Below, piece after piece: positions 1-63,367 of a stretch of DNA of 64,000 nucleotides. Positions within the stretch are counted from its first letter, which is position 1; each line of letters begins with the position of its first letter. This stretch comes from Dioscorea cayenensis subsp. rotundata (taxonomy: Eukaryota > Streptophyta > Magnoliopsida > Dioscoreales > Dioscoreaceae). The translations under genes were made by a program, and so were the position numbers. The stretch is from positions 28,203,916 to 28,267,915 of the forward strand of contig NC_052489.1 of assembly GCF_009730915.1 (NCBI RefSeq), given 5' to 3'. The notes under the pieces were generated by a model. That model was not told the DNA's origin. It worked only from the letters and a program-made list of their open reading frames with translations, and ran no database searches.

Positions 1-97
1 ACATCCCTTTCTCCTCTTCTCTTTCTTGCAAACCTCCATTACTTTCCATTGCTTAACTTGCTAGCTAGCTAGCTAAACAACTAACTAGCTAGCTCTC

Positions 98-442
98 ATG
101 GCCATGGCTAAGCATTCCTACACTTGTGCAGCTCTTTTTCTCATCATGTTCATCCTTGCGTGTGAGCAAACACTGCCATGCAAAGGAAGGAACTTGAGGC
201 TAGAGAATCATAACATCAATGTTGTTGTTCATAATATGAGATGGTTGACGGAAATGGAAGCTAAAAGTGAACATCAAATGGTAAGTGGGACAATTGGAGA
301 GTCTATAGAAGTGCATGATAATTCTTCAAGTAATCTGGTTGACGCTGAGGATGCTCGTCCTACAGCGCCAGGACATAGTCCTGGAGTTGGCCATGTTCTC
401 AATGACAAAGGAGTGGACAAAAACCTCAACAATAGGAATTAA
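98..442 (+). CDS. CEP: CEP-family secreted peptide hormone precursor
   Basis: A 114-residue single-exon precursor. The N-terminus has a hydrophobic stretch (about residues 11-22, rich in A, L, F, I) typical of a secretion signal. The middle is variable. Residues 85-99 read DARPTAPGHSPGVGH, which fits the 15-residue C-TERMINALLY ENCODED PEPTIDE consensus (D-x-RPT-x-PG-x-SPGVGH). In this family the precursor is secreted, the 15-mer is released and its prolines are hydroxylated, and it signals through CEPR-type receptor kinases in nitrogen-demand and root signalling; that role is family knowledge, not visible here. There is one CEP domain, 15 residues from the C-terminus. The start codon is the first ATG of atggccatggct; a second in-frame ATG lies two codons on. 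Decayed relatives of this gene lie at 54397-54620. Confidence 0.88.
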   Translation: MAMAKHSYTCAALFLIMFILACEQTLPCKGRNLRLENHNINVVVHNMRWLTEMEAKSEHQMVSGTIGESIEVHDNSSSNLVDAEDARPTAPGHSPGVGHVLNDKGVDKNLNNRN

Positions 443-670
443 TAGGTAGAGGTACTAGCATATATGTTCTTCTAATATCTAGCTATTCCAATATGCTTTA
501 TTATAGTTTGTTTATGCATTGCTTTCTCTTGTCGCATCGTTGGTTTCTCTCTGTCTTTTTCATATTGAGTTTCTGGTTGTGGTTTAAGTTGTTTGTCAAA
601 TCTTGCTTTGTGTACATATTCTTTTTCAGGTCAATGTTATATGCTTGTTTGCATGGTTCCATATATTCTT

Positions 671-8570: not shown

Positions 8571-9177
8571 CGATTGAAAGTGTTCATAAAATTTTTAAAT
8601 TTTAACTTCTACCCTTTATGAATGATTAAGGTGGATACTTATAATAAGACGTGTGTGTGAGTGAAAATTGAGCCCAAAAATTTGGGCTTATTTTTCACTA
8701 ATATATTTTCAAAGGTGAGATGAATAATTACAACTGACAAAACATGTTACATGACAAAATAAAATTAAGAGTCCTATCATCACCACTTTGTATATAGGTT
8801 ATATCTATGTAAGTGCTAATAATAGGCGTTGCACATCCATTAAAGAGCGTACAAATGAACAGATTAATCTTGAGCGGAGAACATATATAAGTTTATTTGA
8901 AGAATAGTGAGGAACATGCAGTTTGTTTTAGTAACTTATAAAAGCATGATATTTTTGTGGGCCATTATATTGTGTCTTAGTAAGTCCAAGTTCATATATA
9001 TATATATATACGTTCTTGAATGCATTGATTGAGTGTTTAGACTCGCAATCCATGCTTATAATATCATACGATCATAGAGGTTAAAAAAAAACAGAATATA
9101 TATGTTGTAAAGAATAATGAGAAAAATCAAACCACATTGGAAACATGAAAGTCTTGAATTAATCTTTGAAAGAAATT

Positions 9178-9214
<37 letters not shown>

Positions 9215-9364
9215 TAATTTAATATGTTTGAAGACTAATTATGATTTTCTTCATTGTATTGTACCATATATTGTACTATATATATAAGAATGTCTCCCTG
9301 CATTTCTAATTATTGAAATGAGATGGAATTGTTACTGTTTTTTTATTTCATTTTATTTCTTTAG
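8571..9364. other. Intron or upstream part of the left MADS copy
   Basis: No coding exon recognised. The MADS-domain exon and exon 2 should lie 5' of 9365 but are not in this stretch; they may be in or beyond the gap. It contains an imperfect palindrome around 8660-8700 (gagcccaaa / tttgggctta) and (AT)n tracts at about 9000 and 9181-9210. Confidence 0.6.
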
Positions 9365-10413
9365 AAAAACAACAGTGGCTATGCAGCTTTGATGAAAGAT
9401 TATGCTGATCAACTTCGCCAATTGAGGGTTAATTGGTTCTTTCATATTATTTTTGGTATAAATTAACAATCATCAATTTATAATTTTATGTGGGGAACTA
9501 TAATGCTTTAAGCCATTGCAGACAAATGAGAGGGGAAGACCTCCAGGGATTAACTTTGGAGGAGTTAGTGCATCTTGAGAGAACAATTGATATTGGATTA
9601 GCTCGTGTGATTGAAAGAAAGGTATATGTACATGATATTAATCACTTTTATATGAGTATTTATATAATTACATTATTAGCTTTATATAGTTGTTACTTCC
9701 CCTTAGCAATATTGATAGTCTCTGTTGTTAATATGACTATGTTTTTCTCTCTTTCTAATAATGCACATTTACATTATCCAAATATTTTCTAATAACCATC
9801 TGTTTTCAGGGACAACAAATAATGGAAGAGTTAAATAGCCTCCAACAAAAGGTGACAAATATAAGTTTCTCTTAATGCTCTTATTTCTTATTCTCTTTGG
9901 TTTTCCTTTAAATTAAGTATCTATGTATGTATTGATTGTCTGCCATATTGAAGGGAATGCAATTGCTGGAGGAAAAATAAGAGGCTGAAAAGAAAAGGTC
10001 TTCTGTGTTTATTTCTTTTTGCTTGATTTATAATGAGTGTGCATGCATGCATGCATTGTTATATGTATAAAGAAATGCTATAACATGGAGTTTGAAGAAT
10101 TAAATAGATGGAGGAGATGTGCATGGTTGAGAAGCAGGCTGTGATTGATCATGACCCAATGAATGGTTTCCATGAAGATGTCCAATGTTCCTCTGAATCA
10201 GTTCCAGAACATTGTGATCAACCCTCTGATACATCACTTAAACTTGGGTAAGAGCTTGTCAATCATTGAAAGCCCCTTTTGCTTTCTATATATAGAACTG
10301 GAGTACAGGTTTTGGAAAATAAGAAAATTATCAAGTAGTGATGTGTTTATCTTCTTCTCTTTTTTTTTATAATTTGTTTTTGAAGGCTACCAAGCTCTGA
10401 TCACTGGGAGTGA
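9365..10413 (+). pseudogene. SVP-like MIKC MADS-box gene, 3' exons, frame broken (left copy)
   Basis: Exons 3-8 of a type II MADS gene encoding the K box and C-terminus: 9365-9427, 9522-9621, 9810-9851, 9954-9997, 10108-10247, 10386-10413. Exon 4 (100 bp) and exon 5 (42 bp) have the canonical MIKC lengths. K-box text such as QMRGEDLQGLTLEELVHLE and the ending LKLGLPSSDHWE point to the SVP/AGL24 (StMADS11) clade of DNA-binding repressors or activators of flowering and dormancy. Compared with the copy at 61532-62575, exon 3 has one extra G at the splice donor (ttgaggg against ttgagg). Exon 6 has two extra A's, giving a TAA at 9978-9980. All three extra bases lie in short homopolymers next to a contig end, so sequencing error is as likely as true decay. 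The MADS-domain exons are not present. Confidence 0.8.
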
Positions 10414-10889
10414 AGAACAAACAGCATGCAATGCATGGGTATGTCCTTAAGTTCTTAACAGTGATTAATGAAAGCTTTGAGATTTTTTAAGTGGAGCATG
10501 TAATTTGTTGACTTTTCCAGTTGTGCGAATGCTCAGATGGTCCCTACATTTTTGGAATAAAAAAGTTTGTTTCATGAGTTGATGACAACCTGGGCATCAC
10601 TGTTGCCCATGAAACATGTCTGTCATTGAATCTCTCCTTTTTAAGTGGCAATCTTGCTACCATGAAATTGAATGGTTCTTGTTTTTGTTTATTTATTTCT
10701 GAATAAAATTGAATTGAAAGATGGATAAGCAGTGAACTCATCATCATCATCAACATATCTGTATGTATGTGCACTTATATATACTAAATATAAAATATTG
10801 CTTGTCTTTTATTTCAAAAAAGGACTCATATTTGTCTGTTCTTCTGCCAACTTATATATATATATATATATATGTGCGTGTGTGTGTGT

Positions 10890-11062
10890 AAATGATGTTC
10901 TTTGTTAAAAGATGATGTTCTTTGTTAGAAAATGTGTATCCAAAAGTTCTATATATATATATATATATATAAATGATGTTCTTTGTTAGAAAATGTGTAT
11001 CCAAAAGTTCAATATATATATATATATATATAAATGATGTTCTTTGTTAAAGGATATATGTA
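10890..11062. repeat. Minisatellite, about 60-bp unit, three copies
   Basis: Each unit reads aaatgatgttctttgttaga, then aaatgtgtatccaaaagttc, then an (AT)n run. Three successive units differ mainly in (AT)n length. The same array lies inverted at about 60890-61060. Confidence 0.8.
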
Positions 11063-11067
11063 TCCAA

Positions 11068-11168
11068 AAGTTAAAAGCTATCTTTTTTCTGTATTTGGTT
11101 TGTTGTTTGTATAAAGTGTGATTTATCCACTTTCATAAAAATTTAAAAAAAAAGAAGTTAAAAGCTAT
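11068..11168 (+). mobile_element. 5'-truncated LINE tail with 14-bp target-site duplication
   Basis: The sequence aagttaaaagctat occurs at 11068-11081 and again at 11155-11168. Between them lie 73 bp ending in gtgatttatccactttcata and an A-rich tail. A short 3' fragment with a poly-A tail and long direct repeats is the signature of target-primed LINE insertion. The same insertion is present at about 60790-60880 in the other arm, so it predates the split of the two copies. Confidence 0.7.
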
Positions 11169-12337
11169 TGTCTCCATGCAGAGTATTGTAGGTCCAAAGA
11201 TTGAAGGATATTTATGCTGGTAATTAATAAAGAGAGCTTGGATTATATTGTCTTTTGATTTGTAATATGAAAGCATGTATCTGTCTCCATAACTCAAAGG
11301 CGAATATTACAAAGTGGATGAGGATGTCTCATTCATGGGTTTTACCCCCTTCTATTTTGCCCATTCATGGGTTGGGGGTTGTTTTATCTTGTTTGTTGTA
11401 TTTTTTTTTTGGGTTGGGGGGGCCTTGTTTTATCTTGTTTGTTGTATTTTTTTTATTTGTTTCGTACTACACCTAGTGGTTGTTGATGTTTGTACTGATT
11501 TTTCTATTAATTCGAAGTGGTTTATCCATTTTTTCACCCAAAAAAAAAAGTGTAACAGGGAGCAGGCAGTGGATCATATAATTAAATGGTCAAAATAATT
11601 TTTAAAAAAACTTATTTTTATTTTTAAATTTGATGAATTTAAAATAGGTTTTAATTGAGAGTCTTTATTCTACTTAAATTCATGTTCTTTATGCTTTTAA
11701 TTGGTATGGTAGAGGTTTGGAACTATCAAAACAAACATATATTTCTCTTGAAAATTTAATATCATTAATTATATTTCCTGGGCAGTGATGAGGATCGGAC
11801 ATGGGGAATCATATATGCAATATAAAATGCCTTTTTAATAACATCATAAATATCCAAATTGTTCATTTATCTCCAACACCTTAATATATAACGTTAATTT
11901 AAACTGATGGTGACTCATGGGCCATGGTCCAAAAGCCCAATCATAAAAATGTTTTTTTTTTTAAAAAAAATAAACCTAAAAAATCACAACCACAAAAAAA
12001 TAACGTAAGTATTCAATACATATATATACATAGCGAGTATGATTAAATTAATCAAGGAATTTACATCAGTCAAGTTGTTTGACTCCATAACATTACTAGT
12101 GGCTTTTAAAAATTTAAATAAATTCAATAGAAAAACCAACAACCCCAAACATATATATATAAGTAATCAACATAAATCTTAATTCACTATCAAAATAAAA
12201 TAAAAATTAATATAAATCCCTCAAAAAAAAATTTAAGAATACAAGTCCATAGACATACATATACAAATACATATACATACGTATACAAACTTGTTTCCAT
12301 ACCCAACAACAAAAGCAAAACAAACAAGCAATTAAGT

Positions 12338-48700: not shown

Positions 48701-51700
48701 ACACTTTTTCATTATCATCCCATACCCATTCATTTCCCCCCTCTTTCGTTACTTCATTCCCTCTCATTTCTTTACGGTAATCCAAACGCACACTAAATAT
48801 TTTATTATTACATGAAGATGATTTAAAGAGCATAAGAGGAACATTGCTACAGTACAGTACTGAAACTACGAATCTGAAGCACATCTTGTTGAACATGGAT
48901 GTTAAAAATTATAGTCAATTAGGTGACGGCAGAATATGCATAAATGCTATAATCACATACAAAACAACTCGTATTAGAAAGGTCCAAGTTGAAAATGTCA
49001 AAACTAGCATGAGCACTAAAGTAAAGGTTAAATAAAAAATAAATAAAGATATAGTGCCAAATAGGAACTTTTAGACCTGAAAAAAGATAGGTTAACTTTA
49101 TAAGTTCACAAGATATTACATGTAGTTTACTTGACCATCAAAATAGAAAATAGAAGGAAAAAAACCATGGCTAGTAATATTATTTGAACAGATGCTTCTT
49201 TAGTTAACAATCAGTAGCAACACAAATAAATGTTTTTGGATAAATGTTCCTACATTCCTAAACAATCATTTGGAGACATGATAGAAGCTTATTTAGGTTA
49301 GGAAACTAGCTAAATTTGAAGGACATATCACAATATGGAGCATAAAAAATAGAACACAATAGAACAAAACAACCATGCAATAGTAATTTAGACCTTGCGT
49401 GCAAACATGAAAATTAAGCCCACTTTCTTGAGGGAGTGGACAAGTAGGTAGTATAGAGTAGCACAAAGAAGAAAAAAACCATCCAAAAGAAATTAAGATC
49501 TTGAAGTGGTGGAATATGTCTGGTTGAAATGCTCCAAGCACGCTTACATGAAGAGAGATTCAATCACCACACAACCTAAGCTAAGCTAAGACAAGCAAGC
49601 GACCCTACAGAAACCTTGTTAGGCTTTTCTTCAACTGTTCTGAAGTGCTGGTTCGGTTTGTAATGGGACTATATGGCTCGAACTGGCATCAAATAAAGAT
49701 AACTTACATGGTCATGGGCTCAGGACTAGTCTCTCTGATAACTTTTGAGGTCTTGGACAGTTGGACTAGACCTAACTTGCATAGAAGTTCTGATAGTATC
49801 AACTAGGACATAGACTAATTTGTGCGTCATAAATATTCCAAATATATAATAGTAGATAACAGGCTTCAGCAAGATTTATACATATGTATATAAAAACCAA
49901 CAACATCCTTGCTCATAAGACTTTAAAAGAATCAAGTATCTACAGACTAGGATGCCAACTAGGTAGATGTTGGAAAATCTCCTTATGCATGTTGCTTGTG
50001 AAAATTTGGAATACTTAAACTATTGTCTTCATGATGCAAACAACGACAACTCCCACGAGGATCTAGGATTAAGACCTTGAAGTCTATTGTTATGCACAAA
50101 TTATCATACTTTGATTCAGTAAGAAAATAACCAATAGCTAGCAATGAATCAAACAGGCTGCAGTAGCTATTCTGTTCAAAATTGTTAGCATTAGCTAAGA
50201 AATATCAAAATAAACTGAAAGAATAAAGCGTCAGGAACTCTAAAAGGGATATGCCTAAGTCAGGTGAAAGAATTACATACCAGAGGATTTCCTAGGTGTT
50301 GCAGCACCAATTCGCATGGGCCTACTTGAGCAGTATACACCATTCATTTCAGTCATAGCACGTGTTTTTTCTTCATCATCACCAAATCTCACAAACCCAT
50401 AACCTTTTGAACGACCGGTATTTGCATCAATAACAACTTTGGCACCTTTCACTGAGGAATATCTACTGCCAAACGTTTCTTGCAACATGGTATCAGTAAC
50501 ATCAGAAGCTAGATCACCCACAAATATAGAATGATCAGAAGCGGCATCTGAACGCCTATCACCCATGCTAAATGTAGCCCAATTTAAACGGAAAGGCTGA
50601 TCTGTGCTAGGCATAGCAGCGCCATTCAAAGTATGAAGAACTTTTTCAGCCATTGCATGTGATACAAACTCCACAAATCCATATCCCTCTGACTGTCCAG
50701 TCTGCTTATTTCGAATAACTTTAATATTGACAACCTGCAATAATATTGTGACATTATCAAGATGATGACCAAAGATGAATAGAGAAAATGTAGGTTCAAT
50801 AGGTTTATCACCATGCATCATCCTAGGCCATAACCTAACTAGGAAGCAAAAAAGAAAAAGAAGCTTTGGATAAGGATTCAAAAGAAATGATGACATTTCG
50901 ATCATCAATCAGCTTAATCAAAATCACTATGAACTTGTGAAAGGACACAGAATCATGGCCAAGGACACATAGTAAGAGAAAGTTAACTTCAGGTGAGTGA
51001 AAGGGCACAGAATCATCTGTAAGCTCCAGATAATATACTCATAGACAGCCCTTCTAGCATGGACAGGGAACACTGGAAGAATGATAATATGACAACTGTC
51101 AGCACAATCGTATTTCTGTCGTAGAAAGAATTCACAGTCTTCAAACAATAAAATTGAATGAAAAGAATCACAAGGGAACGTAATAACTTTAATTTAGCGA
51201 CTTCTCTAGAGAAAGACCAAGCTGACCAGTAATCAATAATGATTACTGACATTGTATTTCACAACTAAGGCATAAAATCTTTGTATAAGTAAAGGATACC
51301 ATCACCAACTGATATTCACTAGAAACAGCATCATATCATTTTCTCAAGAAGTGCGAACATGGGATCATGTGCATCTACATACTCATGCATATAGTACAGA
51401 TGAAAACTCAGATGTGGCTAACTACACATATATGTAAAACTAGAAGATGATTGAGGCAAATAAAAGAAATTAAGTATTTCCATTGCATCAAATGATACAT
51501 AGATTTACTTGCATAAACATATCTATGAATGATTAGATATATTGCATAGCTGGAGGCAAAACTTGAAAGGCGTAGATTGAATGTTAAGAATCCAGATGAG
51601 GAAAAGGTGATTTTACCGCATTATATGGCATTTACATTTCTTACCATATGGAATTTTGAAATGCAAATATGCAATCACGGGTTAAAATGTAAGCTCTATG

Positions 51701-53194
51701 TTTTCCAAACATAATTCAAAAAAAAAAATGTCGGTGAGTTTGAGAAAACATGTAGACACACAATAGTTAGAAAGTTTGCGATGATAGAAGTTTGCAAGTT
51801 AATGCAACTGTAGGAGATCAAAAACATAGTCAATGACAGTCAACAGAAACTTAGACTAAAAGAATTCCATAGAGTAAAACACTCCACTGGGACAAGAAAA
51901 CAAGACACACATCCAAGAAGTCTTACCCTCTTTAGTCATGTCCTTTGAATATGCAGAAAAAACACTCTAGAATTCCAGAATTATGGCATTAATTACTCAA
52001 TACAAATCAAGAACACCATCTCGTTTGAATTCTATAAATGAGATAAAGGGCATCCAAGACAAACAATAGAACATGAAACATGAATTATGACAAAAAAAAT
52101 ATTAACAGAATGATAGGTATGAGTCTGCCATTGAGAAAGCTAAAAATAAGTCAATCCAACTCCAAAAGCAAGAAATGAGAAATACAGCTTCAAGAAAGCC
52201 TATAAAGAATGAGTTACAAACTACACAAATGTAGAATGAGAGAAGAAAAAAAGATAAGCGGCACTGCTTGAAATTAGAATCACTTCATATAGGTGTTAAC
52301 AGTGTTATCTTCACTTGTTTATTATCTCTTAAAAAAAAGTTTGGAAGGCAACCATTACATTAACAAGATAAAACCAAAAGAATAATTTGTTGCACTAAGA
52401 GAGGATGCAATCATTGTAATGATTAGGATGAATCAGTGAGATATTCTTATCAAAAATCAAGAATGCAAGACTACTTGCGAAAACTTTTGAGAACGATCAG
52501 ATCTTTCTCTAGATTCTACAGTCTATCAAAATTCAAACCTCTCGGACTTCATAGTTTACCATTTCTATTCCGTAGATCTCCAGACCAGAAAATTTGTTGC
52601 TAAATTTCACTGCCAATCAAATAACTAAATCTAACCATCACTGAAAGAAAGCTCATAAAGATTGTATCTTTACTCTTCTACTCAAAACAGCATCAACAAA
52701 GTACGTAAAGAACAGAAAAATATATAAATCCTTCAGATCTAGACATCTCAAAATCAGGAAGAAGACGAGAGAAACTTCCTTCTTCCGTTCTTGAACTTCT
52801 GACTAATTTCCCCCCGAATCAGATCTAGGATCACAATTTTCAAGAAAAACAACTCACAAAAGTTCTCAAGAACCCTAAAACCAAGAAAAACCATCAAAAA
52901 GATATCGAAAGCATCCATCACCTGTCCGATGTAGCCGAAACAGTTCATGAGGTAAGCCTCATCCATCCAGTAATGCAAATCCCCCACCCAGATCGTCTTG
53001 TTCTCCTCCGTCCCACCCACCACAGCTTCCGCCGCTTGCGGCGGCGGTGGGTGGAAGGGCATGAAGTGCGGCCCCCCATAAGGCGGCGGCGGCGGCGCCA
53101 TCATCAACGCCGTCGCCGGATACCTCATCGCTGCCACCCACTGCGGCCTAGGTCCCATCGCCGCCTGCTGCTCTGCCGCCGCCGCCGCCTGCAT
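45745..53194 (-). CDS. RBP45: RBP45-type RNA-binding protein with three RRMs
   Basis: Six exons in one frame: 53194-52922, 50734-50281, 46601-46534, 46455-46325, 46199-46103, 45900-45745, giving 392 residues. The N-terminus is rich in alanine, glutamine and proline, as in the RBP45/RBP47 family. RRM1 (about 67-142) has TIWVGDL and EGYGFVEF and is split by intron 1. RRM2 (about 159-237) has SIFVGDL and KGYGFVRF. RRM3 (about 266-335) has VFVGGL and CGFVQF. The end is tyrosine-, glycine- and methionine-rich. Family members bind U-rich or poly(A) RNA, shuttle to the nucleus and enter stress granules. The start at MQAAAAAEQQ fits the family; the ORF extends upstream only as noncoding leader. Introns 1 (2.2 kb) and 2 (3.7 kb) are long; intron 2 contains a MITE-like element. 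Confidence 0.94.
48081..48795. mobile_element. 715-bp MITE-like element in RBP45 intron 2
   Basis: The ends are inverted: left tagtgtttggatgggggtaa, right (reverse complement) tagtgtgcgtttggattacc. The outer 100-150 bp at each end are G/C-rich with repeated attaccc / gggtaat motifs, while the middle (48280-48660) is almost pure A/T. If the ends are read as gtgttt...aacgcac, the flanking dinucleotide is TA on both sides. There is no ORF. It is a non-autonomous DNA transposon; the superfamily is uncertain. Confidence 0.65.
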
Positions 53195-54396
53195 CGCCGG
53201 TGTTATCCCTAGAGAGAGAAAAGAGATCGAAACCAAAGCGAGAGGAAAGAGAGAGAGAATGGCCAAGCTCGCGGGTTGCCTTCTTAAAACGAGGAGGCGG
53301 CTCAAAGAAAAGGTTTGATCTTGTCCGTCCGATAACTAGATTGAATGATCTCAACCGTTGATTAGGCACGAGGGGTAAGGTTGACCAAATCCCCCTCACG
53401 ATTGAGATGAGATGAGAAAGAGCGGTGATGTTTCCATATAAAAACAACTCTTTTTTGTCATATTTTTCACTCCTTCCGCGTTTTCCGACCGTTGGATCTC
53501 CGCTCCCTCTCATCTTTACCATCTCGCCCCTAGTTTCCATTTTCAGTTTGACGTTTTTGTCAATACCTCCCTGAATTTTTTTCTTATATATATATATATA
53601 TATATATATATCACACTACACTACTCCACAGCTACTGATATATTGATATATATTTAATTTTAAATTTTGGTTTTATATAAATATTGTTTAAAAAAATATA
53701 TATATATATATGTCATAAATATTGTTTGGTTCTTCATTATGGAAAATCAACTGCAATAGGAGTTGAATGCAAATATGAAAGATTTGAAGGAGGGATTTGC
53801 AAATACCAAAATTCATAAACGGTTGGGTTGAATTCCAAATTTCCAATCCTTGATTGGTTGCTTTAATAAAAGAAGAGTAGTTTGTTTAATGATATATATA
53901 CATTGATTCAAAGTTTAGATATTTCTTCCATTTTTTGAGCACGTCAACTTGCATTAATTATAACCTTTAGATGTCTAATTAATTTAAGACAAAAACTTAT
54001 CAGAACAAACCGTGCATTACCAAATGACAATATATATATTTGGTACAAAAGGACCCAGGCATTAATTGTTTTGTTTGGTAGAGTTGAATTTTCATCAATT
54101 TATTCCAATTATTTATTCATAAAAAATGTTTGTTAATTACATTTCTATCTTGCTTGTTATGCACAAAGAAATAAAACAAGTGTCCGTGTGTGTGTCTGTA
54201 TTTATACTTACAATTGAGATTAATGAGAACCAAAAATAATTAATTACCATATTGAGCTTACAGCATTAATTAATTAATTAGTTTAAGATCAAGAACCCAA
54301 AACCATGCATGGTTAAGAAGAAAACTAGCTAATTACCATATATATATATATATATATCAAGCTTAAAATTAAAGGATGATCTTGAACTCATGAGTC
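53195..54396. other. RBP45 promoter side and decayed CEP upstream region
   Basis: 53195-53560 is the RBP45 leader and promoter. An (AT)n run lies at about 53585-53611. From about 53905 to 54345 the text parallels 57150-57770 and leads into the CEP relic at 54397. No gene seen. Confidence 0.55.
53905..54345 (+). repeat. Diverged direct duplicate, copy 1 (CEP upstream region)
   Basis: Shares with 57150-57770 the ordered blocks ttgattcaaagtt, acttgcattaatta, cagaacaaacc, attaattgttttgtttggta, tcaatttattc and accatgcatggt followed by ctagctaatta. Indels separate the blocks. Copy 1 continues into the CEP relic; copy 2 continues into the Copia LTR at 57775. Confidence 0.65.
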
Positions 54397-54512
54397 ATGA
54401 CTTTGGCCAAGCATTCTTACACTTATGCTCATCCATGCTCTTAAAATCAAACCATTTATAAAAGAAGGAACTTGAGGCTAGAGAGCATCATCATGTTGTG
54501 CATGAGAGATGA
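54397..54512 (+). pseudogene. CEP gene relic, plus-strand arm
   Basis: Aligns with the start of the CEP gene at 98-235: tttggccaagcattcttacac against atggctaagcattcctacac, then, after a gap, agaaggaacttgaggctaga, which is nearly identical to the CEP gene at about 187-206. The initiator is damaged, the signal-peptide part has lost bases and stops appear. The CEP-domain part is absent. It pairs with the inverted relic at 54528-54620. Confidence 0.78.
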
Positions 54513-54527
54513 TCACTAAACTTAATT

Positions 54528-54620
54528 AATGATACTCTTTAGTCTCAAGTTCCCTCCCTTAATTACATGCATGATAAGAAGAGCATGAGTGTAAGAATGC
54601 TTGGCCATTGCCATGAGTAG
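54528..54620 (-). pseudogene. CEP gene relic, minus-strand arm
   Basis: On the minus strand this reads atggcaatggccaagcattc and on through a damaged signal-peptide coding region to gggaacttgagactaaagag. That parallels the CEP gene start (Met-Ala-Met-Ala-Lys-His-Ser-Tyr-Thr) and its KGRNLRLEN segment. It is frame-broken and has no CEP domain. With 54397-54512 it forms an inverted repeat with a loop of about 35 nt. Confidence 0.75.
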
Positions 54621-55760
54621 ACAAGAGAGATTAATAGAGACTTAAGAAGGAAGAAGAAGAAGAAGAAGAAGATGGGATGGGCTTTCAGTACCTTGATCAA
54701 GGGTGTATATATAAGGTGATGAAGGGGATGCTTGGCTTGCACCAATTAAGTAAAGTGAGAAAAACAAAGACATTATAAGAGCACCGGTTGTGATACATAC
54801 ATAAATTAACAATGAGGATTAGATATACTATAGAAATAAGGGAAGAAACACAGTAGTGGTTAAACCAAGGATTTCATTAAGTAAAGCAAATATATATAGT
54901 TATTTATTAAGCCACTTGGATATATATATATATAATGGTAAGCATAAGCATAAGCATAAATAGAGAAGACTAATAAAGCACCACCAAAAGAATAAGTTGA
55001 ACGTTAGTCTTTGTTAAGTATTTTTTCCAAAGAAGATGAGCTAAAAAGCAAATCAGAAGAAAGATAAGGCAGTGAAGAGAAGATTCTCAATAAATACTTG
55101 ATATTGGATGTCATGACTAGGATGGCACTAATAGTTTCCATCTCCCGTTTGCTATTTGCCAGAACTAAGAATAAAAAAAGGAAAAACAATAATCACAAGA
55201 ATGAAGGATGATTTGCAAGTAAGAATGATGATTTTGTATACATGAAGATGAAGATGAAGATGAAGATGGGACGATGCTAAGTGTAAGACTCTCTGATTTT
55301 TTTTATGCATATATAAGTGAATATTAATAATACATCAATTGAATATGTTTTTTTTTTTCTGCCAAAGATGCAGATAATGAGAAATCTTACATTGAGAAAC
55401 CCTTTTCTTTTCATAGTGTATCTATAAAAGCAGTCAAAGATATAAGCTATTATTTTATTTTTCTTTAATTAAAATAAATAAACCACCAACAATATATTAA
55501 GGCAAAGAAGAAAACATGCGGAGAAAGTCTTGATGTAAAAGCCAGCAAACAATATTTATGATATTGCAAGAATAAAAAGCAGTTTGAAAACAATCGCATC
55601 AACATTTACATAAAACCTCACTGTTTTTTTAATAAATTACAGTATTTTTCCTTTAACTCAATACATTAATGGTTCGGTTTTTATAATTATTAATATTTTT
55701 GTAGGGGACTTGTGCTTTTAAAAATGTCATGTGTTTAGAAGTAATCTAGCTGGTTTTTAA

Positions 55761-56477
55761 GGGTGTGTTTGTTTGGGTATATTTGGTTTTACGTGTAAAA
55801 CCAAATACTTTACTATATAAAATTTATTATTTGTTTGAGTGTATTTGCAAACCCTGATATAATTGGGATTACATTACAATAGCTTTTTTGGTGTATTTGG
55901 TTTTACACCCAAATTGGGCGTAAAACCAAATTCCAGGAGTTGAAAACCAATGTATATATATACATACATGCATAGATGCACACACACATACACATACACA
56001 TACATATACATTTATATATTTATATAAACATATACATGTATTTTTACACATATACATATACATACTTATATACATATATGTATGTATATACACATATATA
56101 TATACTTATACATACATATATATACTTATATACATATATGTATATACATATATATATACATGCATGTACTTATACAGGTATATATACTCATATACATATA
56201 TGCATATATATATACACATATAAACATATATTTATACATATATATATTCATATACATATATGTATATATACACACATATACACATGCATTTTCCAATTAC
56301 AGATTTACAAATCTTTTCAAACAAACATAAAATTTTTATAATACGATGATATTTCGCTTACATCACAACACAAACACAAGATTTGACTCGCATCGTATTT
56401 TGAAAACCAAGTTTTCTAATTACATTTGAATTAGAAATCCAATCTGCATTTAGAATTACATCCAAACTAAACGGCCC
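55761..56477. mobile_element. MITE-like element interrupted by a microsatellite
   Basis: The ends are inverted: left gggtgtgtttgtttgggtat, right (reverse complement) gggccgtttagtttggatgt. Inner arms carry repeated ggttttac / gtaaaacc and aattacatt motifs. The middle (about 55951-56290) is a 340-bp (TATACA)n-type expansion. I found no clear target-site duplication. Confidence 0.5.
55951..56290. repeat. Complex (TATACA)n microsatellite
   Basis: Alternating tatacatatatg, cacatacaca and catacttata units over about 340 bp. Reading it as protein gives only Tyr/Ile/His repeats, so the ORFs here are artefacts. Confidence 0.9.
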
Positions 56478-59869: not shown

Positions 59870-61066
59870 ATGGAATTATTTAAATTTTGTGCCACCAGTA
59901 ATGTTATGGAGTCAAACAACTTCCGACTGATGTAAATTCTTTGGATTAATTTAATCATACTACGCTATGTATATATATGTATTGAATACTCACGTTAGTG
60001 TGGTTGTGATGGGTTTATACATTTTATGATTGGGCTTTTTGGACCATGGCCCATGAGAGTCACCATCAGTTTAAATTAACGTTATATATTAAGGTGTTGG
60101 AGATAAATGAACAATTTGGATATTTATGATGTTATTAAAAAGGCATTTTATATTGCATATATGATTCCCCATGTCCGATCCTCATCACTGCCCAGGAAAT
60201 ATAATTAATGATATTAAATTTTTCAAGAGAAATATATGTTTGTTTTGATAGTTCCAAACCTCTACCATACCAATTAAAAGCATAAAGAACATGAATTTAA
60301 GTAGAATAAAGACTCTCAATTAAAACCTATTTTAAATTCATCAAATTTAAAAATAAAAATAAGTAAAAATTATTTTTGACCATTTAATTATATGATCCAC
60401 TGCCTGCCCCTGTTACGACTCTCTCTGGGTGATGGATAAACCACGGGCAATTAATAGAAAAATCAGTACAAACATCAACAACCACTAGGTGTAGTACGAA
60501 ACAAATAAAAAAAATACAACAAACAAGATAAAACAAGGCCCCCAACCCAGATACAACAAACAAGATAAAACTAAACCCCCAACCCATGAATGGGCAAATA
60601 GAAGAGGGGTAAAACCCATGAATGAGACATCCTTATCCACTTTGTAATATTCGCCTTTGAGTTATGGAGACAGATACATGCTTTCATATTACAAATCAAA
60701 AGACAATATAATCCAAGCTCTCTTTATTAATTACCAGCATAAATATCCTTCAATCTTTGGACCTACAATACTCTGCATGGAGACAATAGCTTTTAACTTC
60801 TAAAATTTTATGAAAGTGGATAAATCACACTTTATACAAACAACAAACCAAATACAGAAAAAGATAGCTTTTTAACTTTTTGGATACATATATCCTTTAA
60901 CAAAGAACATCATTTATATATATATATATATATATTGAACTTTTGGATACACATTTTCAACAAAGAACATCATTTTATATATATATATATATATATAGAA
61001 CTTTTGGATACACATTTTCTAATACAAGAACACTCATCTTTTAACAAAGAACATCATTTCATTACT

Positions 61067-61097
<31 letters not shown>

Positions 61098-63367
61098 AGT
61101 TGGCAGAAGAACAGACAAATATGAGTCCTTTTTTGAAATAAAAGACAAGCAATATTTTATATTTAGTATATATAAGTGCACATACATACAGATATGTTGA
61201 TGATGATGATGAGTTCACTGCTTATCCATCTTTCAATTCAATTTTATTCAGAAATAAATAAACAAAAACAAGAACCATTCAATTTCATGGTAGCAAGATT
61301 GCCACTTAAAAAGGAGAGATTCAATGACAGACATGTTTCATGGGCAACAGTGATGCCCAGGTTGTCATCAACTCATGAAACAAACTTTTTATTCCAAAAT
61401 GTAGGACCATCTGAGCATTCGCACAACTGGAAAGTCAACAAATTACATGCTCCACTTAAAAATCTCAAAGCTTTCATTAATCACTGTTAAGAACTTAAGG
61501 ACATACCCATGCATTGCATGCTGTTTGTTCTTCACTCCCAGTGATCAGAGCTTGGTAGCCTTCAAAAACAAATTATAAAAAAAAAGAGAAGAAGATAAAC
61601 ACATCACTACTTGATAATTTTCTTATTTTCCAAAACCTGTACTCCAGTTCTATATATAGAAAGCAAAAGGGGCTTTCAATGATTGACAAGCTCTTACCCA
61701 AGTTTAAGTGATGTATCAGAGGGTTGATCACAATGTTCTGGAACTGATTCAGAGGAACATTGGACATCTTCATGGAAACCATTCATTGGGTCATGATCAA
61801 TCACAGCCTGCTTCTCAACCATGCACATCTCCTCCATCTATTTAATTCTTCAAACTCCATGTTATAGCATTTCTTTATACATATAACAATGCATGCATGC
61901 ATGCACACTCATTATAAATCAAGCAAAAGAAATAAACACAGAAAGACCTTTTCTTTCAGCCTCTTATTTTCCTCCAGCAATTGCATTCCCTTCAATATGG
62001 CAGACAATCAATACATACATAGATACTTAATTTAAAGGAAAACCAAAGAGAATAAGAAATAAGAGCATTAAGAGAAACTTATATTTGTCACCTTTTGTTG
62101 GAGGCTATTTAACTCTTCCATTATTTGTTGTCCCTGAAAACAGATGGTTATTAGAAAATATTTGGATAATGTAAATGTGCATTATTAGAAAGAGAGAAAA
62201 AACATAGTCATATTAACAACAGAGACTATCAATATTGCTAAGGGGAAGTAACAACTATATAAAGCAATAATGTAATTATATAAATACTCATATAAAGTAA
62301 TTAATATCATGTACATATACCTTTCTTTCAATCACACGAGCTAATCCAATATCAATTGTTCTCTCAAGATGCACTAACTCCTCCAAAGTTAATCCCTGGA
62401 GGTCTTCCCCTCTCATTTGTCTGCAATGGCTTAAAGCATTATAGTTCCCCACATAAAATTATAAATTGATGATTGTTAATTTATACCAAAATAATATGAA
62501 AGAACTAATTAACCTCAATTGGCGAAGTTGATCAGCATAATCTTTCATCAAAGCTGCATAGCCACTGTTGTTTTTCTAAAGAAATAAAATGAAATAAAAA
62601 AACAGTAACAATTCCATCTCATTTCAATAATTAGAAATGCAGGGAGACATTCTTATATATATAGTACAATATATGGTACAATACAATGAAGAAAATCATA
62701 ATTAGTCTTCAAACATATTAAATTACCGCATATATATATATATATATATATTTGAATTTCTTTCAAAGATTAATTCAAGACTTTCATGTTTCCAATGTGG
62801 TTTGATTTTTCTCATTATTCTTTACAACATATATATTCTGTTTTTTTTTACCCTCTATGATCGTATGATATTATAAGCATGGATTGCGAGTCTAAACACT
62901 CAATCAATGCATTCAAGAACGTATATATATATATATATATATGAACTTGGACTTACTAAGACACAATATAATGGCCCACAAAAATATCATGCTTTTATAA
63001 GTTACTAAAACAAACTGCGTTCCTTCTATTTCAAATAAACTTATATATGTTCTCCGCTCAAGATTAATCTGTTCATTTGACTCGGTTTTAATGAAAAAAA
63101 TGCGCAACGCATACATACGCACATAGATATAACCTATATACAAAGTAATTGATATAGGACTCTTAATTTATTTTGTCATGTAACATGTTTGTCAGTTGTA
63201 ATTATTCATCTCACCTTTGAAAATATATTAGCAAGAAAATAAGCCCAAATTTTTTTGGGTCAATTTTCTTTCACTACCTCCGTCTTATTATAAGTATCCA
63301 CCTTAATCATTCATAAAGGGTAAAAAAAATAGTTAAAATTTAAAATTTTATGAACACTTTCAATCGA
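59870..63367 (-). repeat. Right arm of the inverted MADS duplication
   Basis: The reverse complement of this arm matches 8571-12128. It starts at the first base after the gap and extends to 63367, the exact partner of the first base of contig B. Beyond 63367 the sequence continues for another 630 bp with no counterpart in the window. Confidence 0.93.
61532..62575 (-). CDS. SVP-like MIKC MADS-box gene, exons 3-8, intact frame (right copy)
   Basis: Six exons on the minus strand: 62575-62514 (62 bp), 62420-62321 (100), 62133-62092 (42), 61989-61948 (42), 61837-61698 (140), 61559-61532 (28). The 62/100/42/42 lengths are exactly those of MIKC MADS genes. All phases join, giving 137 residues to the stop. 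They form the end of the I region, the K box (QMRGEDLQGL, LERTIDIGLARVIERK, GQQIMEELNSLQQK, GMQLLEENKRLKEK) and a C-terminus ending LKLGLPSSDHWE. K-box helices mediate dimer and tetramer formation with other MADS factors. The text fits the SVP/AGL24 clade, which regulates flowering time and bud dormancy. The MADS-domain exons are missing and should lie on the minus strand beyond 64000. The last-exon end LGLPSS-DHWE is well preserved. Confidence 0.87.

Follow-up and report, generated by a model that had tools for sequence, protein, structure and literature searches.

The stretch of DNA analysed here (the window; 64,000 nucleotides of Dioscorea cayenensis subsp. rotundata, C19:28203916-28267915) contains an intact CEP gene, CEP1, and an inverted pair of CEP fragments at 54395-54617, the presence of which we confirmed. 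Homologues were sought in a genome of 584,211,761 bases in 2249 contigs, and the match counts given below are lower bounds. The genes of the C19 cluster with open frames are:

98-442, plus strand: CEP1, open frame for a 114-aa CEP precursor with DARPTAPGHSPGVGH
C19:28193890-28194237, minus strand: CEP2 (L005), 80% amino acid identity to CEP1

CEP family members have a secretion signal at the N-terminus and a CEP domain of 15 aa, and the peptides have roles in the growth of lateral roots, in nodulation and in signalling at low nitrogen (PMC6056668). No Pfam model scored over its cut-off with CEP1. The predicted protein carries both family features, namely a secretion signal at the N-terminus (judged by eye) and DARPTAPGHSPGVGH, which we take to be the CEP domain from its core motif. 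In CEP2 the frame is still open and the CEP domain is eroded to LASPTAPGHSPAVGH; CEP1 may thus be the one CEP gene of this cluster that still works. A DNA search with CEP1 as the query recovered at least CEP1 and CEP2 and no other locus, and the genome search located at least three further CEP-like genes on C18. CEP1 is the presumed target of any small RNA made from the inverted pair, whose parts are as follows:

54395-54499, plus strand (sense): left arm L, inverted CEP 5' fragment, recognised by blastn to CEP1 and by its match to a second relic (L002)
54500-54528: loop region separating the arms, from predicted folds and arm spacing
54529-54617, minus strand (sense): right arm R, CEP 5' fragment, recognised by blastn to CEP1 and by predicted folds
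54404-54430: stem block A, pairing with 54581-54607 on the plus strand; one difference between L and R in 25 positions
54459-54493: stem block B, pairing with 54527-54561; 18 + 3 + 12 bp on the minus strand
54522-54614, minus strand: residual ORF of 30 aa, MAMAKHSYTHALLIMHVIKGGNLRLKSIIN, without a CEP peptide

A preliminary description had read this place as two decayed copies of the 5' part of a CEP gene that face each other across a loop of about 35 nt and fold into a hairpin of about 220 nt, and our data bear this out. The blastn comparison with window 1-500 (CEP1) matched both arms, R with CEP 95-149 (80%, E 3e-7) and 182-211 (81%, E 0.09), and L with CEP 96-129 (82%, E 6e-4) and 182-225 (86%, E 4e-6). 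The outer arms (54395-54433/54578-54616) are 87% complementary and the inner arms (54459-54491/54529-54561), which are spaced 37 nt apart, 82%; the inner arms and block B account for the second strong block that had been noticed near the loop. The foldback measures 223 nt. The perfect 20-bp block 54404-54423:54588-54607 of the same description recurs in the predicted folds, where it extends to 27 pairs on the plus strand and to 29 pairs with a 10-nt bulge on the minus strand.

Refolding of 54380-54640 on the plus strand gave -106.6 kcal/mol, compared with -55.6 on average for shuffled sequences (z -12.8; 0/200 shuffles as good), and 54380-54680 on the minus strand gave -108.8 against -64 (z -8.1; 0/100 shuffles as good). 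In a scan of 2045 segments of 240 bases each, the hairpin lay 8.5 s.d. under the G+C trend; the six segments that scored below it after G+C correction all cover an AT/AC simple repeat at about 55.9-56.3 kb. The minus strand of this AT/AC-rich repeat (55979-56289) folds very stably, and sub-threshold matches to animal miRNA families at 55943-56000, on the edge of the repeat, were taken as chance. The in-frame 30-aa peptide of the R arm retains the CEP start and GGNLRL and lacks the CEP domain. Small ORFs have been described from the 5' portion of primary miRNA transcripts (PMC6056668), and we draw no link from these to the R-arm ORF.

How the pair arose can be read from its relatives in the cluster. 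The relic L002 (C19:28181084-28181206), 77 kb away, matches the L arm and loop (54401-54524) at 85% and is without 54525 to about 54940, that is, without the R arm and the promoter. The right-hand promoter region is present at a third place, C19:28191705-28191960, where a CEP arm was looked for and none was seen. That a mobile element had brought the R arm was considered and dropped, as the promoter region also occurs at this third place. Moreover, a deletion of 20 nt, which would shift the frame, is common to L, R and L002; neither CEP1 nor CEP2 shows it in either of the two MAFFT alignments. This shared gap suggests that one broken CEP copy most likely gave rise to both arms by inverted duplication, in keeping with the inverted-duplication model invoked in the preliminary description.

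Blocks A and B conflict over the nearest relationships. Within block A, the two arms are separated by 1/25 differences, and L and R are separated from CEP1 by 3 and 4 respectively (3-6/25 to CEP1 and CEP2 overall); within block B, L is closer to CEP1 (1/22) than to R (4/22), and R has 3/22 differences from CEP1. Arm-to-arm conversion in A or faster decay of R in B would explain the conflict. The block B distances would also fit two separate CEP relics that were brought face to face, as would a resemblance of the left flank to the CEP2 leader (score 41, reached by 1/500 shuffles, falling to 27 once an AT run is masked), and MIR846 consists of two juxtaposed related sequences (PMC1790633). The 20-nt gap common to L, R and L002 and the closeness of the arms in block A both speak against such an encounter, which we consider improbable. 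An assembly artefact, in which a read or haplotype was folded back, is very improbable indeed: scaffold gaps of 1000 bases do occur in the region, the nearest 4.2 kb from the hairpin, but the arms align at only 68% over 237 columns and hence are not one sequence read twice, and both the left relic and the promoter region on the right have further copies in the cluster. We consider it highly probable, from the sequence comparisons, that the hairpin has the anatomy given above and originated from one duplicated copy. On a larger scale, the window contains an inverted pair of 3.6 kb (8571-12121 and 59876-63366; 94.7% identical), each copy of which begins at or a few bases from a 1000-base assembly gap, and the orientation of the 48 kb between these copies may be uncertain.

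The region to the right of the hairpin resembles the promoters of the intact genes:

54706-54713, minus strand: TATATATA box, CEP-type core promoter, by colinear homology to the CEP1 and CEP2 promoters
54618-54690, minus strand: CT-rich leader of the putative transcript, aligning with the CEP1 leader
54650-54960, minus strand: promoter and upstream region, homologous to C19:28191705-28191960
L017 1501-1737, L018 1447-1665, L019 1501-1620 and L020 1501-1535: dispersed copies of the upstream region

Compared with CEP1 and CEP2, the promoter beside R scored 48 and 51, values that 0/500 shuffles reached (best shuffle 43 in each case), and TATATATA stands 99 bases upstream of the former start codon on the minus strand. 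Transcription would thus be expected to start near 54680 on that strand. For the left flank, the score to the CEP1 promoter was reached by 299/500 shuffles. Since a CEP promoter lies beside R and the likeness of the left flank to the CEP2 leader depends on the AT run, the minus strand is more likely to be transcribed. Transcription of the plus strand, which folds nearly as well, is less favoured, its flank being without a CEP1-like promoter. In a minus-strand RNA, L would lie on the 3' side, antisense to CEP, and R would form the 5' arm of the precursor. A minus-strand ORF with RRM motifs lies at 50273-50905, downstream on the strand of the putative transcript.

Parts of 54687-55001 recur on C14 (89%), C6, C15 and C1943. 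Loci L017-L020 share additional sequence among themselves, and L017 shares the upstream region to just beyond the TATA box. The dispersed upstream copies look like a fragment of the CEP locus that was captured and spread by a mobile element.

Every 21-mer on either strand of 54380-54640 was given a target penalty by the rules customary for plants. The sequences that matter for targeting are:

54464-54484, minus strand: candidate guide 21-mer UCUCUAGCCUCAAGUUCCUUC, block B, 3' arm; penalty 0 to CEP1 and 5 to CEP2
54460-54480, minus strand: shifted 21-mer UAGCCUCAAGUUCCUUCUUUU, four bases on; penalty 0.5 to CEP1 and 1.0 to CEP2
186-206, plus strand: CEP1 site opposite block B (GRNLR codons), perfect complementarity
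105-125, plus strand: CEP1 site facing block A, differing from the left arm at 2 positions

The best minus-strand 21-mer, UCUCUAGCCUCAAGUUCCUUC, is the perfect complement of CEP1 186-206, and the minus-strand 21-mers of block A have penalties of at least 2.5 to CEP1. The lowest penalty to CEP1 among plus-strand 21-mers was 2.0 (54595-54616, in the 3' arm of that strand). The preliminary description had found the 20 bases of the perfect block in CEP1 with two mismatches, and CEP1 105-125 and the corresponding left-arm 21-mer indeed show 2 differences. Its proposal of complementarity to the intact gene therefore stands, with the amendment that it named block A and left the better match, the perfect 21 nt of block B, unused.

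The block B site occurs exactly at three places found in the genome (a lower bound), namely CEP1, the hairpin itself and L002. With up to 3 mismatches there are 14 genome sites, compared with 15 for the reversed pattern; therefore, the inexact sites are background except CEP2 and the R arm. Block A, at the same tolerance, has 13 genome sites, compared with 0 for its reversed pattern, and 4 of these lie within the C19 CEP cluster. The CEP genes on C18 were rejected as targets, with penalties of at least 6.5 among the 21-mers that score 5 or less to CEP1 or CEP2.

We compared the locus with known hairpin classes. The duplex criteria for MIRNA loci allow up to 5 mismatches and up to 3 asymmetric bulged bases in a foldback under 300 nt. 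Under these limits, 84/241 of the 21-mers on the minus strand and 63/241 on the plus strand of the 223-nt foldback form a qualifying duplex, and both arms resemble one protein-coding family. For inverted-duplication MIRNA loci a target-score limit of 4 has been used (PMC1790633), and the scores to the parent family are 0 to CEP1 and, in the shifted register, 0.5 and 1.0 to CEP1 and CEP2. A known miRNA family was rejected, as an Rfam miRNA search of 53000-56000 gave no match at the gathering score (over the hairpin, SpF43 reached 22.9 bits against 70 and MIR5048 15.9 against 160). A MITE was likewise rejected: only the hairpin and the one-arm relic were found, with no second whole copy (a lower bound), and dispersed copies are confined to the upstream part 54687-55001. 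MITE hairpins are also short folding inverted repeats, but the yam arms are derived from a gene.

Sixteen Arabidopsis MIRNA loci arose by inverted duplication of genes (PMC1790633). MIR163 and MIR161 are young loci of this type (Allen et al. 2004, as cited in PMC1790633), and at MIR163 the promoter of the parent was duplicated too (PMC1790633). Like these two loci, the yam hairpin has arms that are gene-like beyond the target site and a predicted target in the parent family, and, as at MIR163, the parental promoter was carried along. It differs in that it is known from DNA, its parent was already a pseudogene and its putative target is a peptide-hormone gene. In A. thaliana, one miRNA gene overlaps two adjacent inverted paralogous pseudogenes (PMC3237417); there, too, two adjacent pseudogene pieces are inverted and the parent gene is the target (presumed in yam), but that locus is an annotated miRNA gene whereas the yam hairpin is a prediction.

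Rice Lgc1 and maize Muk are endogenous inverted-repeat silencing loci. Soybean CHS provides a further such locus (PMC8306516), and in all three cases, as in yam, inverted gene fragments are homologous to intact genes. In soybean the inverted repeats that produce siRNAs are long and the phenotype is visible, whereas the yam arms are short and decayed. The yam locus is a new candidate of a known kind, either an inverted-duplication MIRNA or a hairpin-siRNA locus. As a hairpin-siRNA source, its stem would be cut to mixed siRNAs, which may methylate the locus and CEP1, with no single miRNA. The two long stem blocks with few mismatches agree with this, as does the finding that most gene-similar Arabidopsis foldback loci gave complex siRNAs (PMC1790633), but the stem is split by internal loops and a 10-nt bulge, and we regard this outcome as unlikely.

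Divergence from L002 provides a measure of age. The relic and loop carry 9/124 substitutions relative to L002 and the right flank carries 51/244 in the MAFFT alignment (relic slower, p 0.0006). With columns near gaps dropped, the values were 8/100 and 40/196 (p 0.007, MAFFT), and three pairwise scorings gave 37/231 to 44/233 for the right flank, the relic again being slower (p 0.003-0.02). The near-left flank has 20/74 substitutions in MAFFT (p 0.0003), 10-13/74 in the pairwise alignments (p 0.03-0.21) and 11-14/96 when the AT run is kept in these (p 0.12-0.35). The relic is therefore slower than the right flank and, less surely and depending on the alignment, slower than the left. Within it, block A has 2/27 substitutions, the middle 2/28, block B 0/25 and the loop 3/35. 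As the stem does not evolve clearly more slowly than the loop, selection explains the data no better than conversion of the tract or a more recent origin of the piece. Conversion would equally account for the slow relic, as would constraint that lasted long at L002 before its partner arm was lost.

The preliminary description had called the locus young, which is doubtful. With a divergence of 16-21% between its right flank and that of L002, the locus is probably not very young, and is old on the scale of a single species; it should accordingly be shared with related species.

The hairpin may be a silent relic, that is, inverted pieces of a CEP pseudogene in a cluster of broken copies, decaying neutrally and without effective transcription. 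Consistent with this, partial copies lie nearby (L002 with one arm, the 28191705 place with the promoter region only), L002, now without a hairpin, keeps the perfect match to CEP1, and the loop is conserved equally to the stem; drift and death are perhaps the commonest fate of such loci (PMC1790633). On the other hand, the TATA box and the colinear promoter persist here, whereas at 28191705 the box is altered and the resemblance to the CEP promoters is weaker (3/500 shuffles reach its score to CEP1 and 1/500 its score to CEP2), and blocks A and B keep long, near-perfect pairing. We give silence nearly an even chance, and the choice between a silent relic and a small-RNA source is about even.

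A CEP pseudogene hairpin that acts as a source of small RNAs on CEP1 is, in our view, the best explanation, and we put it forward tentatively, at somewhat less than an even chance. We propose the following sequence of events. A CEP copy would have lost 20 nt of its signal-peptide codons and become a pseudogene, and the 5' part of this pseudogene would then have been duplicated into an inverted, converging pair, both steps being supported by sequence. The R copy retained a CEP core promoter, from which RNA polymerase II would most likely read the minus strand from about 54680 across both arms. The RNA would fold into the hairpin of about 223 nt, and Dicer-like enzymes might cut its two well-paired blocks into 21-24-nt RNAs. 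The RNAs from the 3' arm would be antisense to CEP, and those from block B would match CEP1 perfectly and CEP2 nearly. The block B RNAs would repress CEP1 wherever the related promoters are active. Production of a small RNA in some tissue is a real possibility that we hold at a little below even, and repression of CEP1 that is of consequence to the plant is rather improbable.

An unlikely but far-reaching extension is that the locus is a working CEP silencer with a promoter sister to those of its targets, whose 21-nt RNA trims CEP1 and CEP2. As part of this sister-promoter reading, the same signals (such as low nitrogen) might switch on CEP1 and its silencer together, which we would likewise not expect. 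If true, a small-RNA brake would act on a CEP hormone, and a dead gene copy would have given rise to a built-in, self-limiting circuit.

In the open-access literature searched, we came across no small RNA directed against a CEP gene, and miR2111 acts downstream of CEP, not on CEP (PMC8306516, PMC6056668). Small RNAs of D. opposita include 50 novel miRNAs, and the main text of that paper does not contain the term 'CEP' (PMC6998100). Searches for yam CEP literature gave general yam papers only, among the first 15 of 4,131 matches. A full-text search for printed small RNAs with six pieces of 14-17 bases gave a match to one piece, in a paper about a human gene.

If the hairpin works, it would be a natural example of a hormone gene under the control of its own pseudogene. 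Moreover, the cluster brings together a relic with one arm, an inverted pair and a copy with the promoter region only, which makes the steps of MIRNA birth comparable within one place.
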